DNA of 38,505 bases. Source: Methanotrichaceae archaeon (GTDB lineage: Archaea; Halobacteriota; Methanosarcinia; Methanotrichales; Methanotrichaceae). The notes below the pieces were generated by a model. That model had not been told where the DNA came from. It did no database searches and saw only the letters and a program-made list of their open reading frames with translations. Position numbers and translations under genes: made by a program. This document shows positions 11,958 to 18,666 of the stretch, piece by piece. The stretch spans positions 1 to 38,505 of the forward strand of contig JAFGMR010000003.1 of NCBI GenBank assembly GCA_016927425.1, written 5' to 3'. Position 1 is the stretch's first letter. Every line of letters starts with the position of its first letter.

Positions 11958-12194
11958 AGCAACCTCCTGAATATTTGTTTTGTTCTTCTCGGGAGACTGC
12001 TTGGGCAGTTCCACTCGGTCTAAATCGAATTTGTCTCAAATCTCTACCACACCTGCGCCTCTGAAGGCTAAGAAAGGTTGATGATAAATAAGACTGTGTC
12101 TATCTGGATTATCTATTTTTGCATATGGTCTGAGGGGATCAGAGCAACCTTCTAATACAATAAATTCTCACGATTGTACGGTGCGGTTGGGAAC

Positions 12195-14948
12195 ATGTTT
12201 GAAATCAGACTGATCATCGATAATCGAGAGGTAACTGTCCCCAAGGGGGCTACCATTCTCGATGCGGCCCGCAAAGCAGGCTCTTATGTGCCGGCACTTT
12301 GCCATCATCCGGACTTGAAGCCCATAGGATCCTGCAAGCTGTGCATCGTCTCTGTAAAGGGCCTTGATTACTATCCTACATCCTGCAATACCCTGGCGGA
12401 AGAGGGAATGGTGGTGGAGACCCGGACAGAAGAGCTGCAAGAGATGAGAAGACACACCCTGGAGATGCTCCTGGCCCTCACCAATCATCCCACCTCCTGC
12501 CTTTTCTGCGAGAGGGGAGACGAATGCACCGATTTGCGCGAGTGCATGAGAAAATTTCCAGCAACCGTGGGTTGCAAGTACTGCCCCAAGAATGGGGAGT
12601 GCGAGCTGCAGGAGGCGGTGCAGTTCGTCGGCCTGGAAAAGATCAGGTATCAGCTCTCCTTCAGGAATGTTCCGGTCTTAAGAGAGCCCTTCTTCGATCG
12701 GGATTACAACCTCTGCATCATGTGTAGCCGATGCGTGCGAATCTGTCAGGAGGTGCGTGGGATGGGGGTGCTGTCCAACAATCCTGACTTTCACCATATG
12801 CACTGGATAGGCCCCTTATCCCTGCAGGACTCAGACTGCAAGTTCTGTGGCGCATGTGTGGATGCCTGCCCCACAGGTGCCCTCTACGTCCGATCTCAGA
12901 AATGGATTAAGCCAGAGATGGCGGTTTCTACCGTCTGCCCCTACTGTGGCGTAGGCTGCCGATTAAAGCTTGGAGTCAAAGACAACAGGGTGATCTCCAT
13001 CACCCCGGACAGAGATAGCCCAGTAAATCGGGGGCAAGCATGCGTCAAAGGCCGTTTTGGCCTGGACGAGGTAGTGCACCATCCCGACCGTTTGACAACG
13101 CCTCTGATAAGGCGAAACGGCAGACTTGAGGAGGCCAGCTGGGAAGAAGCGCTCGATCTCGTTGCCAAGAGGTTCGCTGAGATCAAAGATAGATACGGTC
13201 CTGATTCAATTGGAGCATTTTCCTCTTCCAGGTGCACCAATGAGGAGAACTACCTGGTGCAGAAACTTGCAAGAGCGGTCTTTGGAACCAACAATGTGGA
13301 CAACTGCGCTCGAATCTGCCATGCTCCATCGGTTACAGGGCTTGCCGCCTGCTTCGGCAGCGGAGCTGCTACCAATTCCTTTGACCAGATTGAAGACGCC
13401 GATCTCCTGTTCATTATCGGTTCCAATACCACCGAGGCTCATCCGATCGTCAGTCTGAAGATAATCAAGGCAGCTAACAAGGGCGCAAAGATCATCGTTG
13501 CCGATCCGCGTAAGATCGAGCTTGTCGACCTGGCAACGGTTTGGCTCAACCTAATGCCGGGAACTAACATCGCACTGTTGAACGGCATGATGAACGTCAT
13601 CCTGGAGAGTGGGCTTGAAGACCGGGACTTCATTGCCGCGCGTACCGAGGGCTTCGAGGAGTTCCGGAAGGTGGTTTTGGAATATCCGCCCAATCTGGCT
13701 TCTGAAATAAGCGGAGTTGCCGAGGAAGATATCATTGAAGCGGCCAAGCTCTATGCCAAGGCAAAAAATGCAATGATCATCTATAGCCTTGGAATAACCG
13801 AGCATATTACTGGAACCGCAAATGTAATGTCCTTGGGCAACCTCGCCATGCTTACGGGCAATGTGGGACGCAGGTCTACCGGGATTATGCCGCTTCGCGG
13901 GCAAAATAACGTTCAAGGGGCCTGCGATATGGGGGCCCTTCCCAATAATTACGTCGGTTATCAACCGGTAACGGATCCGGATATACGGTCCAAGTTCGAA
14001 GTGGCCTGGAACGTCAAATTGCCCCCAACTCCTGGTCAGACCTCCACTCAGATGTTGGATAATGTCAAACAAGAGGGAATCAGGGCGCTTTATATCCTCG
14101 GAGAAGATCCCGCCCAGACCGAGCCCGATACAAATCGTGTCTGTGCAGCGTTAAAAGCCCTTGACTTCCTCGTTGTTCAGGAGATATTCCCAACTGAGAC
14201 CACCAAATACGCCGACGTAATCCTGCCTGCTGCAAGCTTTGCGGAATGCGACGGGACCTTTACAAATGGCGAGAGGCGCATACAAAGGGTGAACAAGGCA
14301 ATTCCTGCAATATGCGGCCTGGAGAACTGGGAGACGATCTGCAAGATAGCCGAGAAGATGAACTATCCCATCAGCTACAACCACCCATCGGAGATCATGG
14401 ATGAGATCGCTGCTCTTGCGCCTATGTTTGGCGGAGTAAGCTTTTCGCGTCTGGGGGTAGGCGGGCTTCAGTGGCCCTGTCCATCCATTGATCATCCGGG
14501 CACAAAGACGATGCATGTCGGTAAGTTCAGCCGTGGCTTGGGCAAGTTCAACGCAGTTGAGCATAAATACCCAGCCGAGCGGCCGGATTCAGATTATCCG
14601 TTGATCCTTACCACCGGCAGGAGAAGGGAGCATTACAACTGCGGCTCGATGACCCGGCGGTCGAGCGGTATCATGTGGGTCTGGCCGGAGGAAGCAATAG
14701 AGATAAGCCCAACAGATGCTGCCGAGCTTGGTGTTTGTGACGGGGAGACGGTTCAAGTCAGCTCAAGGCGCGGCTCCGTTAAGACAACGGCAAGGGTTAC
14801 CGACAAGTCGTCGCGCGGCGTTGCCTTCATGTCCTTCCACTACCAGGACGTCTTAACGAACCTCCTTACAAACGCCGCGCTCGATTTCACGGCAAAGACG
14901 CCCGAGTTCAAGGCCTGCGCCATAAGGATAGAGAAGGTCCCTTCGTGA
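12195..14948 (+). CDS. fdhA: Formate-dehydrogenase-like molybdo/tungsto-enzyme with NuoG-type N-terminus
   Basis: A 917-residue protein. Residues 1-80 form a 2Fe-2S domain (Cys36, Cys47, Cys50, Cys64). A Cys-rich NuoG-type region follows, including HPTSCLFCERGDEC and CKYCPKNGECELQ, then two 4Fe-4S motifs (CIMCSRCVRIC, CKFCGACVDACP). The catalytic part opens with the 4Fe-4S motif CPYCGVGC and carries ARICHAPSV, where Cys replaces the selenocysteine of FdhF, and STGIMPLRGQNNVQG. A bis-pterin-binding C-terminal domain ends the protein. Formate dehydrogenase (CO2/formate) is the best call; a related oxidoreductase is possible. ATG 12195 is preferred over TTG 12174 because the ferredoxin fold begins there. 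No FdhB, NuoE/F-like or FdhD gene is adjacent, so its electron partner must lie elsewhere. Confidence 0.85.
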   Translation: MFEIRLIIDNREVTVPKGATILDAARKAGSYVPALCHHPDLKPIGSCKLCIVSVKGLDYYPTSCNTLAEEGMVVETRTEELQEMRRHTLEMLLALTNHPTSCLFCERGDECTDLRECMRKFPATVGCKYCPKNGECELQEAVQFVGLEKIRYQLSFRNVPVLREPFFDRDYNLCIMCSRCVRICQEVRGMGVLSNNPDFHHMHWIGPLSLQDSDCKFCGACVDACPTGALYVRSQKWIKPEMAVSTVCPYCGVGCRLKLGVKDNRVISITPDRDSPVNRGQACVKGRFGLDEVVHHPDRLTTPLIRRNGRLEEASWEEALDLVAKRFAEIKDRYGPDSIGAFSSSRCTNEENYLVQKLARAVFGTNNVDNCARICHAPSVTGLAACFGSGAATNSFDQIEDADLLFIIGSNTTEAHPIVSLKIIKAANKGAKIIVADPRKIELVDLATVWLNLMPGTNIALLNGMMNVILESGLEDRDFIAARTEGFEEFRKVVLEYPPNLASEISGVAEEDIIEAAKLYAKAKNAMIIYSLGITEHITGTANVMSLGNLAMLTGNVGRRSTGIMPLRGQNNVQGACDMGALPNNYVGYQPVTDPDIRSKFEVAWNVKLPPTPGQTSTQMLDNVKQEGIRALYILGEDPAQTEPDTNRVCAALKALDFLVVQEIFPTETTKYADVILPAASFAECDGTFTNGERRIQRVNKAIPAICGLENWETICKIAEKMNYPISYNHPSEIMDEIAALAPMFGGVSFSRLGVGGLQWPCPSIDHPGTKTMHVGKFSRGLGKFNAVEHKYPAERPDSDYPLILTTGRRREHYNCGSMTRRSSGIMWVWPEEAIEISPTDAAELGVCDGETVQVSSRRGSVKTTARVTDKSSRGVAFMSFHYQDVLTNLLTNAALDFTAKTPEFKACAIRIEKVPS

Positions 14949-15044: not shown

Positions 15045-15227
15045 TTACAGAGGGCTCAGCAGATCTGCTATCAGATCGTCGACGTTATCGAAACGCTTCC
15101 CTAGATCAAGCTCTGCCTCTCTCTTCGCCTCCAATACATCGGCAATGAACTCCTCGCTGAAATCTCCGTGAGAGTCGGAAGCATGCAAGGAGGTGCCAAC
15201 TTTCTGGACCTCTCTAAGGGCAGTCAT
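15045..15227 (-). CDS. Small antitoxin-like protein, apparently orphan
   Basis: This 60-residue acidic protein has ATG 15227 with GGTGG six bases upstream and two TATA-like boxes (near 15250-15260 and 15277-15287). The C-terminal half (VLEAKREAELDLGKRFDNV, then DDLIADLLSPL) looks like the helix and toxin-wrapping tail of RelB/Phd-type antitoxins. No DNA-binding domain is certain. No toxin gene lies downstream; the gene ends near a hairpin and a convergent gene. I treat it as an orphan antitoxin or hypothetical protein; family membership is inferred from its size and composition. Confidence 0.5.
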   Translation of the reverse strand: MTALREVQKVGTSLHASDSHGDFSEEFIADVLEAKREAELDLGKRFDNVDDLIADLLSPL

Positions 15228-15326: not shown

Positions 15327-15354
15327 CCCTCCTCTTGGTGTTCTCTTTAAAAGT

Positions 15355-15396
15355 GGACAGTTTTATTCCGCCATAATCGGCCACTTTTACACCGCC
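15355..15396 (-). mobile_element. Possible IS21-family end remnant
   Basis: On the minus strand GGCGGTGTAAAAGTGGCC (15379-15396) is followed by GGCGGAATAAAACTGTCC (15355-15372): two related 18-bp units, 24 bases apart. Paired GGCGG-TAAAA-GGCC units just inside the end are typical of IS21-type elements as I recall them. No istA or istB gene is present, so this would be a solo end. It sits next to the 3' end of the AT-rich TPR-pentapeptide gene. Confidence 0.4.
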
Positions 15397-15426: not shown

Positions 15427-18400
15427 TCAAGATAATATCGTCGCTCCTAATGCAAAGAAGAATAGGATGGAAAAAATTGCACCAAATATCCTTTCTATGA
15501 TGAATCCAGTCTTTATTATGGATCTGGATATACCTTGATTCTTAGGGATTTCAGGGGGATCGACAAAGAGTTTTGTGCCTGAAAGAAAAATAATTGCACT
15601 GAATTTAAAAGGTTTTAATATTATGATAACTTTATCTAAAGTCCTCTTTTTAAGGAAGTCGTCTAAGCCGTTGCCCCAAGTACTGTTATATTCATCAGCC
15701 ATAAATTTAATCCTTTGCCAACCTAGAAAGCCCCAAAAAATACCAAATAGAAATATAATAAGTACAGACCATATAAGTGGATAGAGGGGTCTCTTACCAT
15801 AACCAAAAGTTATTAAAGCTAATCCATTAAAAATATACGATAACAAATCTTGGATTATTGCTGCTAATTGGGCCAGTGGGTTCTCTTTTAGCATATATGT
15901 TGGTTGATAATGCACAAATTGCTCTTGCTTATATCTATAATAGCAATCATCAGCGTCTTTATTGAGACCCAATCTCCTGAAGTTCTCAATAAGCAATTGG
16001 TAAGTAGCCTCATCATATGCTAACTCATTAATGTTAGCATATCTAATGAATAATTTTTCATATTTTGTTCTTATCAAATAAAGGGATCTCTTAAAAGTAG
16101 TGTTCAAAAATAATAAATCATCTCTAAAGCGACTATTATTAAAAGTTACATCGTCTTCAAAGGATATATCGTTAAAATTTGTCTCATTGAAAAATATCAT
16201 TCCTGCAAAGTCGGCAGACATATTAAACTTTGATCCAGAGAAGTCTACTGGTCCGTTAATTATTGATCTTTTGAACACAATAGGTCCGTTATACTTAGAT
16301 TTCATAAAACTACTATCTTTCTTAAGTTGTGAATCGGAAAAATCGACCATCTTATTAAAAAATGATCGAATAAATGATGCAGATTCAAATTGAGATCCCA
16401 TGAACCAAGCCTCATTATCAAAAGTAACCCCTTCAAATTCAGCCATTCCTATAAAACGGGATCTTCTGAAATCAGCAATTTCTTTAATATTAGCATCCGA
16501 AAAGGTAACGTTTCTATTAAAATTAGATTCATAGAATCTAGCCCATTCAAATTTGGATACACAAAATGAAACAGATCCGTTGAAATTGGACCCACAAAAA
16601 ATTGCATCTCCAAGAAATTGAGACCCGTCAAATGCAAAATCGCACTCATCTTCTCCAAAGTTATCCGCAAAATTTATATAGCTCCCAAATGATTTGCGCC
16701 CATCAAAATTAGATCTTAGAAAGACAGCATCTTGAAAGAATTTTGATAATTGAAAAGATACGCCTTTATTAAATTGTGATTCAGTAAATATTGCATCTTT
16801 ATCAAATTGAGAACATTCAAAGTTTGCTGATTTCTTAAATATTGATTTAGTGAATACAGAGTATCCATGGAATATGGATTGTGAGAAATCAGAAAAACCA
16901 TATATAGTAGTGTTTTCAAAATTTATGGATTTATAGAATATGGAATTATTAAAATCAATATTTCCATATATCACAGAGTCATTTATATGTATTGGGGAGG
17001 TTACTAATTTATACTGATCAGGAATTATAAAGGGTCCGCGAAATAGGTCATCTCCATCGATCCATTTTATGAAGCTTTCCGTCTCGACATGTTCTGATGG
17101 GAGATTTAGCATATCCAAATTAAGATTTCCATCAATTATAACATGGTCATATTGAATAATTTCGTTTTTCTTAATTTTTTCAAGAATCTCACTAGCAGGT
17201 ATTCTTATATATGGCTTTACATCATTCTTTTTAATAATTCTCGGCTTATTAGGGCGTATTTCTCTAAATATTTCGTCTCTAGATAGATTGGAAAATACTT
17301 CGAGGGTAAGATTTCTTAAATCTCTATCTGTTGGCACATAACCAAAAACATCACTATTATAATTATTAGTAGCGTCCGTACGAGAGTATGGTTTAAAATC
17401 TATGAATATTTTTTTCATTTCGTATGAATTTATTACCTTCCAATTATTCGACAGGTTTGTTGAGCTATTCTGTTCGCTGTCTTCCTGGTTCTGAAAACCA
17501 CCAGATGCTTTCCAAACATCTGAGTTTACACCTAAAGCATTCTCGACTGAATTCTTCAAAGAGAATGCCTTTTCATAATCAGGATCAATTTTAATTGCCC
17601 CTTCGATATATATTAGAGCTTCATCATACTTCCCTCGCTTATATAAAGCATTTCCTTTTCCATACAATGCATTTTTATCTCTCGAATTAATTGTTAAAAG
17701 CCTGTTATAGAAGTTGATGGCTTCCTCATATCTTCCTTGATCACTAAGAGCATCACTTATGCCCTCCAAGGCATTGGTATCATTTGAATTGATCTTGAGG
17801 GCCATACTATAGGCTTCGGTTGCCTCCGCAGAGCGACCCTGTTTTAAAAGAGCCAAACCTTTGCCATCCCAAGCGGATCCATTATTTGGATCCAATGTTG
17901 ATGCCCTAGTGAATGCATCAAGCCCCTCATCTGTTCTATTGAGCATAACTAGCGCTAAACCTTTGATAATCCATACCCATGTTATGTCTGGATCTAGTTT
18001 AAGAGCTTCGTCATAAGCCTTGACACATTCATCAAACCTATTCAGCTTAAGGAGAGCGGTCCCTTTTGATATCCAAATATCACAATTATTTGAATCTCCT
18101 TTGAGAGCCTCGGTAAACGCTTGATTTGCTTCTACCATCCTATCCAAGTCAAATAGAATTATGCCTTTTCTTTCCCAAGCCTCGGACCAATTTGGATCTA
18201 TCAGTAAAGCTTCATCATAGGCTTGGATAGCTTCATCTTTTCTTCCAATTGTATCGAGAGCGTCGCCTTTGTTGAGCCATATCACACTTGATCTTGGATC
18301 TAAAATCAGTGCCTGATCATATAACTCGATAGCATCGTTAGTTCTATTTATTATGGAAAGAACTCTGCCTTTAATGAACCGGATTTCAGAGCTGTTTGGA

Positions 18401-18666
18401 TCTAACTCGATTGCTTGATCAATCAGCTGTAAAGCCTCATCAGTTTTGTTTTCAGAAAGAATAGCCAAGCCCTTCCAAACTAAAATCGTAGAATTTGTCG
18501 GATTTAACACATGGGCATTATTGAAAGCCGGAATTGCCTCATTCATTCGTCCTTCGTTATAAAGAGATGTGCCTATTTTGAACCAATCATTAGCCGTTTG
18601 ATCACCTGAGGCTGGAATTAGGATCAATGTCAAAAGCAAGGTTAGCTTTGGAAGTTCCTTCAGCAT
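15427..18666 (-). CDS. TPR-pentapeptide-repeat membrane protein, 1079 residues
   Basis: Signal peptide or anchor at residues 1-22. About ten tetratricopeptide repeats of 34 residues follow (residues 25-370; W-KG, A-AYDEAL and LDP positions recur). A polar linker (about 375-540) leads to a long series of degenerate pentapeptide repeats with central Phe (about 560-880), such as ADFRRSRFIG and VDFSGSKFNM, expected to form a right-handed beta helix. The C-terminus has several hydrophobic segments (about 930-1079), including LITFGYGKRPLYPL; a similar motif occurs in pentapeptide proteins ending in a channel-like pore domain. The DNA is much more AT-rich than its neighbours and an IS-end-like sequence adjoins it, so recent acquisition is likely. 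There is no Shine-Dalgarno, and a weak TATA lies near 18696-18706. Function unknown; a surface or membrane scaffold is likely. Confidence 0.85.
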   Translation of the reverse strand: MLKELPKLTLLLTLILIPASGDQTANDWFKIGTSLYNEGRMNEAIPAFNNAHVLNPTNSTILVWKGLAILSENKTDEALQLIDQAIELDPNSSEIRFIKGRVLSIINRTNDAIELYDQALILDPRSSVIWLNKGDALDTIGRKDEAIQAYDEALLIDPNWSEAWERKGIILFDLDRMVEANQAFTEALKGDSNNCDIWISKGTALLKLNRFDECVKAYDEALKLDPDITWVWIIKGLALVMLNRTDEGLDAFTRASTLDPNNGSAWDGKGLALLKQGRSAEATEAYSMALKINSNDTNALEGISDALSDQGRYEEAINFYNRLLTINSRDKNALYGKGNALYKRGKYDEALIYIEGAIKIDPDYEKAFSLKNSVENALGVNSDVWKASGGFQNQEDSEQNSSTNLSNNWKVINSYEMKKIFIDFKPYSRTDATNNYNSDVFGYVPTDRDLRNLTLEVFSNLSRDEIFREIRPNKPRIIKKNDVKPYIRIPASEILEKIKKNEIIQYDHVIIDGNLNLDMLNLPSEHVETESFIKWIDGDDLFRGPFIIPDQYKLVTSPIHINDSVIYGNIDFNNSIFYKSINFENTTIYGFSDFSQSIFHGYSVFTKSIFKKSANFECSQFDKDAIFTESQFNKGVSFQLSKFFQDAVFLRSNFDGRKSFGSYINFADNFGEDECDFAFDGSQFLGDAIFCGSNFNGSVSFCVSKFEWARFYESNFNRNVTFSDANIKEIADFRRSRFIGMAEFEGVTFDNEAWFMGSQFESASFIRSFFNKMVDFSDSQLKKDSSFMKSKYNGPIVFKRSIINGPVDFSGSKFNMSADFAGMIFFNETNFNDISFEDDVTFNNSRFRDDLLFLNTTFKRSLYLIRTKYEKLFIRYANINELAYDEATYQLLIENFRRLGLNKDADDCYYRYKQEQFVHYQPTYMLKENPLAQLAAIIQDLLSYIFNGLALITFGYGKRPLYPLIWSVLIIFLFGIFWGFLGWQRIKFMADEYNSTWGNGLDDFLKKRTLDKVIIILKPFKFSAIIFLSGTKLFVDPPEIPKNQGISRSIIKTGFIIERIFGAIFSILFFFALGATILS

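Follow-up and report, generated by a model that had tools for sequence, protein, structure and literature searches.

A TPR-pentapeptide fusion with a potassium-channel-like tail in a Methanotrichaceae archaeon: a candidate exported receptor on an inverted pore

The protein analysed here resembles several described systems in different ways. The nearest work-alike is GluR0, in which PhoA fusions put both the N and the C terminus outside the cell, opposite to KcsA (PMC13099474), and which has been interpreted as a potassium channel in inverted orientation, fused with a binding protein (PMC6385376). By family membership, the protein belongs with the pentapeptide-Ion_trans_2 proteins. A further point of reference is HalA (PDB 9nyi; PMC13275509), the ion-channel effector of Hailong, a system that protects against phages. 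The gene lies in a window, the whole stretch of DNA that was analysed, of 38,505 nucleotides from a Methanotrichaceae archaeon (assembly GCA_016927425.1, contig JAFGMR010000003.1, positions 1 to 38,505). A first-pass annotation of this DNA had described an AT-rich gene for ten TPRs, a long polar linker, a large pentapeptide beta-helix and a channel-like membrane tail, and had speculated that it encodes a new kind of membrane device. Our literature search found no study of TPR-pentapeptide-channel fusions. With a probability of roughly 0.55, we read the protein as an exported, receptor-like TPR arm on an inverted, membrane-anchored pore module derived from a potassium channel.

Domain layout and the membrane tail

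The gene is a single intact reading frame with an ATG start and no internal stop codons (Table 1), and the soluble parts first described in it held up. Ten registers of 34-residue helical repeats, starting at residues 25, 59, 93, 127, 161, 195, 229, 263, 297 and 331, place the N-terminal part among TPR proteins (PF00515 and relatives; TPR_1 at 7.4e-60 in a Pfam search of the full protein). The linker is disordered in the AlphaFold2 model, and both the repeats and the modelled beta-helix agree with Pentapeptide_3 (PF13576), which scores 2.5e-35 in the full protein and 1.4e-36, with no other family, when residues 378-1079 are searched. The full-length model (33-row alignment, single chain, mean pLDDT 82.7) has TPR helices over residues 25-378, forming a superhelix, and membrane-tail helices over residues 886-1078. 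Foldseek matches it best to O-GlcNAc transferase, at its TPR superhelix (1w3b, E=1.5e-19), and the 50 matches listed are TPR-type solenoid proteins. The first-pass annotation had overlooked the signal peptide. The segment ahead of TM1 carries a Y..L..NF..LG...D.D.CYY motif, an amphipathic helix and GYG-KRP. N-glycosylation sequons were counted and then set aside, because the Asn-rich composition makes such counts uninformative.

Table 1. Features of the fusion gene and its 3' flank, in window coordinates
Feature	Residues	Position	Strand	Basis or remark
IS21-family end relic, 44 bp		15353..15396	+	91% identical to istA/istB element end in a relative
Whole fusion gene	1-1079	15427..18666	-	1079 aa
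Signal peptide, MLKELPKLTLLLTLILIPASG	1-21	18604..18666	-	Basic n-region, hydrophobic core, A-S-G end
Ten TPRs	25-364	17575..18594	-	Pfam, repeat registers, AlphaFold2, Foldseek
Disordered polar linker	383-482	17221..17520	-	AlphaFold2 pLDDT about 24-55
Pentapeptide_3 right-handed beta-helix	487-882	16021..17208	-	Pfam; pLDDT about 97 over most
Conserved helices ahead of TM1	886-957	15796..16011	-	Alignment, AlphaFold2
TM1	961-980	15727..15786	-	AlphaFold2 models
TM1-to-pore loop	981-1019	15610..15726	-	Net charge +2
Pore helix and rewritten filter, FSAIIFLSGTKLFVDPPEIP	1020-1042	15541..15609	-	Lowest-entropy tail segment in subgroup
TM2	1048-1078	15433..15525	-	AlphaFold2 models

Broad searches with the protein returned little. 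A whole-protein search of genome contigs gave one distant TPR protein and nothing else, a plasmid search gave partial pentapeptide matches below 60% identity (Streptomyces, haloarchaea and others), and PADLOC reported generic TPR models with no defence-system assignment. Against the PDB, a single-sequence phmmer search with the pentapeptide and tail part found no match, and the full-length profile matched only a thylakoid lumen protein.

The kinship of the tail emerges from its relatives. Searched by itself, the tail has no match in Pfam, and it enters the Ion_trans_2 group (PF07885) through aligned proteins: this domain was found in 15 of 45 tail members (best 1.7e-15), and the succession of TM1, pore helix and TM2 is present at the level of the protein family. 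A tail profile (A2) matches KirBac3.1 (E=1.6e-5), and its listed matches, 60 in number and one of them labelled just 'Transporter', are without exception potassium or related cation channels; a mixed profile (A1) reaches potassium channels at E=0.16 at best. In addition, tails with an intact TIGYGD or TVGYGD, from proteins of the class's second family and a few from the query's own taxonomic family, align with that of the query. Judged by sequence, these profile matches, Ion_trans_2 matches and intact filters place the tail as a two-TM plus pore-loop module, kin to the pores of potassium channels. The channel-like character first suspected thus has a basis in a real pore fold. The alternative that the tail consists of ordinary anchors was rejected on the KirBac3.1 profile match, the Ion_trans_2 matches and the conservation of the pore loop. 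In the AlphaFold2 tail model (pLDDT 86), the sole high-probability Foldseek match is HalA (9nyi; prob 0.89, TM 0.45), at a non-significant E=0.63.

Family members, filters and membrane orientation

Of 50 genomes from the query's taxonomic family, 48 encode pentapeptide-pore proteins, at 1-12 copies each and with all 11 genera represented, and proteins combining pentapeptides and a pore are widespread in the phylum. Typical members are standalone, mostly 350-650 aa long, and consist of an optional signal peptide, the pentapeptides and the tail; the query's own genome has three more full copies. L013 and L023, from two other genera, are the query's partners in the tail tree (98/95). The spread of the protein family is therefore broad, whereas the TPR-pentapeptide-pore fusion was seen in no other member listed, which upholds the view of the architecture as unusual. 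Nor did the relatives listed, among which the query's own subgroup is covered best, include other open frames above 750 aa. As a kind of device, however, it is new only in part: pentapeptide-pore proteins are common, and an exported inverted pore is already known in GluR0. In another genus (G010), a pentapeptide-pore gene with a signal peptide is preceded, 47 bp upstream and in the same orientation, by a TPR gene that also encodes a signal, an independent hint of a link between exported TPR proteins and this channel family. Several TPR-rich frames on one strand were also observed elsewhere in the window's own genome (G000:C16:24517-31135).

Some relatives have distinctive layouts of their own. 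In L049 (G014:C2, 166-2016), an additional exported region of about 190 residues, with no Pfam match, stands between a signal peptide and the pentapeptides, and the GC is 0.33 in surroundings of 0.60. The 956-aa frame of L062 (G032:C82, 613-3483, minus strand) has a signal-less pentapeptide domain and no channel tail, and by eye joins a KAP-type P-loop NTPase-like part with membrane helices to the pentapeptides. L109-L121, from several genomes, make up a subfamily of compact proteins (about 345-380 aa) that lack a signal, start with MVDSLLMIKAEEI and have a filter region like FSSMEFLGRTPQN. Outside the query's taxonomic family, L188, L189, L191, L193 and L203 share a conserved Cys/His motif at the N terminus, Y-x-F-R-N-G-x-x-C...F-C-x-L-H or a near variant, which might represent a small domain that binds zinc.

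The filter is degenerate in most members of the protein family. The canonical form is retained in some relatives, with FYFSMVTFATIGYGDWYP in L066 and L068, TFTTVGYGDWYP in L132 and L156, TFTTIGYGDWYP in L125, and also in L157. At this position the query reads F-L-S-G-T-K-L-F-V-D-P-P and lacks T-x-G-Y-G; in the alignment, its FSAIIFLSGTKLFVDPPEIP occupies the place of FSMVTFATIGYGDWYP. The GYG ahead of TM1 was considered as a filter and rejected, since canonical relatives carry that GYG and, within the pore loop, a genuine T-I/V-GYGD as well. Across the 18 rows of alignment A4, which covers the query's subgroup, mean entropy is lowest in the pore loop, at 1.05 bits against 1.39-2.10 in other tail segments; F, S, G, T and one P are invariant, in the pattern F-x-S-G-T, and near-invariant columns are modestly enriched (hypergeometric p=0.035). 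Such strict conservation argues for a selected function and for a filter that was replaced, not merely lost. Since the potassium signature is gone, the query may nevertheless not conduct.

Signal peptides and topology were assigned with simple hydropathy and charge rules. The automatic rule, a hydrophobic 12-mer at most 60 residues before the pentapeptide onset, separated 77 signal-peptide from 22 no-signal members (n=99 classifiable); for the charge comparison, the query, L049 and L115 were reassigned by hand and L070 was dropped as ambiguous, giving 77 against 21. The mean charge in 73 signal-class members is +1.4 ahead of the hydrophobic core and -1.0 past it (p=2.7e-12), and a positive n-region followed by an acidic stretch would place the pentapeptide domain outside the cell. 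No-signal members have a positive segment ahead of TM1 and an acidic loop past it, as would be expected if their pentapeptide domain were cytoplasmic, and signal-class members differ from them: among 43 representatives, one per cluster, the TM1 charge difference separates the two classes (35 against 8, p=0.0026). On the tail tree, which carries the automatic labels of L115 and L070, the no-signal state turns up at three separate points. The between-group difference in charge suggests that the pore is inverted in exported members, the query included. We hold the orientation at moderate confidence, because the signal class's own asymmetry around TM1 is small (mean +0.2 to +0.3) and the argument draws on few no-signal clades. 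In a sample of 16 pentapeptide-pore proteins from outside the query's taxonomic family, 12 look cytoplasmic and two, L201 and L202, from a genus of the class's second family, have clear signal peptides; L194 and L195 were left unjudged, their true start being ambiguous.

Under this orientation, the signal peptide would send the TPR arm, the linker and the pentapeptide beta-helix outside the cell. With the N-terminal parts outside, TM1 would run from out to in, the pore loop would enter from the cytoplasmic side, and TM2 would return to an external C terminus, as in GluR0. By analogy with such pores, the protein would assemble as a tetramer, with an extracellular stalk made up of the four beta-helices. 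On its tether of about 100 disordered residues, the TPR arm might recognise a protein or peptide, either secreted or on the surface, and once bound could localise the complex or bias the pore. We infer that the pore may conduct something other than selective potassium, that the TPRs may bind a ligand, and that the pore may be gated.

Origin of the gene copy and competing readings

The AT-richness first noted was confirmed by measurement (GC 0.345). The GC3 of the gene is 0.29, against 0.63-0.76 in nine other genes of the window and about 0.68-0.75 in the three paralogs of the same genome, and a relic of a mobile-element end sits about 30 bp past its 3' end; the name IS21 follows our reading of the element's two ORFs as istA and istB. 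The LonB-TldD order is conserved in relatives, and the query gene was not found downstream of TldD in 18 other genomes of the same taxonomic family (searched over 1.5 kb, or up to the end of the contig); in one of them (G003), a different, no-signal pentapeptide gene follows TldD. The contrast in GC3 and the adjoining relic suggest that this copy was likely acquired laterally. The picture for vertical inheritance is thus mixed: the pentapeptide-pore family is found throughout the taxonomic family, but this copy is foreign in composition, has no syntenic ortholog in those 18 genomes and lies beside an IS21 end. Just past the gene, positions 15045-15227 (minus strand) hold a 60-aa frame that by eye looks like an antitoxin-type small protein, with no Pfam match. 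The next large gene (12174-14948) encodes a molybdopterin oxidoreductase with a NuoG-like iron-sulfur N terminus, formate-dehydrogenase-like.

These traits of composition and location could also indicate an accessory gene that arrived recently at a variable site, strain-specific or already decaying, which came out of a mobile region and has yet to settle into a function. We find this unlikely, as decay would be at odds with the long intact frame, the well-formed repeats and the conserved pore-loop residues; an acquired gene may well be functional, so that this explanation mostly bears on the origin of the gene. A more serious contender, though still somewhat doubtful, is that the tail is a channel-derived, oligomerising anchor which does not conduct and holds an extracellular TPR/beta-helix adhesion or scaffold on the surface. 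It would fit the degenerate filters of most family members, the nature of TPR and pentapeptide repeats as binding scaffolds, the many paralogs per genome, reminiscent of a diversifying surface-protein family, and the different exported region that L049 has where the query has TPRs. Yet a mere anchor would not need a pore loop that is the most conserved tail segment of the query's subgroup, with S-G-T invariant.

It is improbable, finally, that the protein keeps the classical orientation, its N-terminal hydrophobic stretch being no working signal, its TPR/beta-helix part lying in the cytoplasm, and its tail being a normally oriented, ligand-gated relative of potassium channels that operates as do others with cytoplasmic gating domains. 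The 21-22 signal-less members (automatic rule), the predominance of cytoplasmic-looking proteins in the outside sample, several with a Cys-rich N terminus, and HalA as the best fold match of the tail are all compatible with such a layout. However, signal peptides are clear in the query and in most paralogs, where a basic n-region precedes the core and an acidic stretch follows it, signals are also found in L066, L068 and L156 with their canonical filters, and the loop past TM1 is net positive in the query. The exported receptor on an inverted pore remains our preferred reading.

A broader proposition is tentative, and we would not expect it to hold in full: that two families of one archaeal class share many paralogous exported receptors built around a potassium-channel pore in inverted orientation, so that the GluR0 topology would have originated a second time. 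Within this set, the query's subgroup would have evolved a conserved filter of a new type, F-x-S-G-T-R/K-L-F-I/V-D-P-P, and would exchange the extracellular binding domain ahead of the pentapeptide stalk (TPRs here, another exported region in L049). If the orientation is true, potassium-channel pores were inverted and fitted with extracellular sensors more than once, and the presumed step to ionotropic glutamate receptors would become approachable in one family, where canonical and degenerate filters, and exported and non-exported proteins, occur side by side. It would also provide a function for a large, unnamed family of archaeal surface proteins.

Comparison with known systems

The PF13576 plus PF07885 proteins of other archaea share with the query a pentapeptide domain followed by TM1, pore loop and TM2, with a homologous tail. 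Those sampled beyond the query's and the sister family mostly have no signal peptide and none has TPRs; unlike the query, many proteins of this kind keep a GYGD-like filter and several have a Cys-rich N terminus. Among sequence-profile matches, the tail family comes closest to KirBac inward-rectifier channels (E=1.6e-5), but the query has no cytoplasmic Kir domain and has lost the signature filter. The superhelical TPR array is common to the query, O-GlcNAc transferase and consensus TPR proteins; in the query, in contrast to O-GlcNAc transferase, the TPRs are predicted to be exported and are joined to a beta-helix and a pore, with no glycosyltransferase.

HalA belongs to the Hailong system, reported by Tan et al. 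in 2025 (doi 10.1038/s41586-025-09058-z, as cited in PMC13275509). It is the sole high-probability fold match of the tail, but the sensor part of the query is predicted to be exported. Profile, phmmer and full-length profile searches detected no sequence relation between HalA and the query's tail, and there is no HalB-type nucleotidyltransferase among the ten neighbouring proteins scanned. With the Foldseek E-value also non-significant, we do not file the query under HalA and Hailong.

The split substrate-binding domain of GluR0 is absent from the query, the best 25 Pfam families being TPR-type models and Pentapeptide_3, whereas a signal peptide and an apparently extracellular N-terminal part before TM1 are present by our sequence rule. 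GluR0 shares with the query an exported N-terminal binding part and an inverted two-TM pore, the orientation of the query being a prediction. Where the pore of GluR0 interrupts the substrate-binding domain and its K+ filter works, the query has its TPR and pentapeptide parts ahead of the pore and a filter that has been rewritten.
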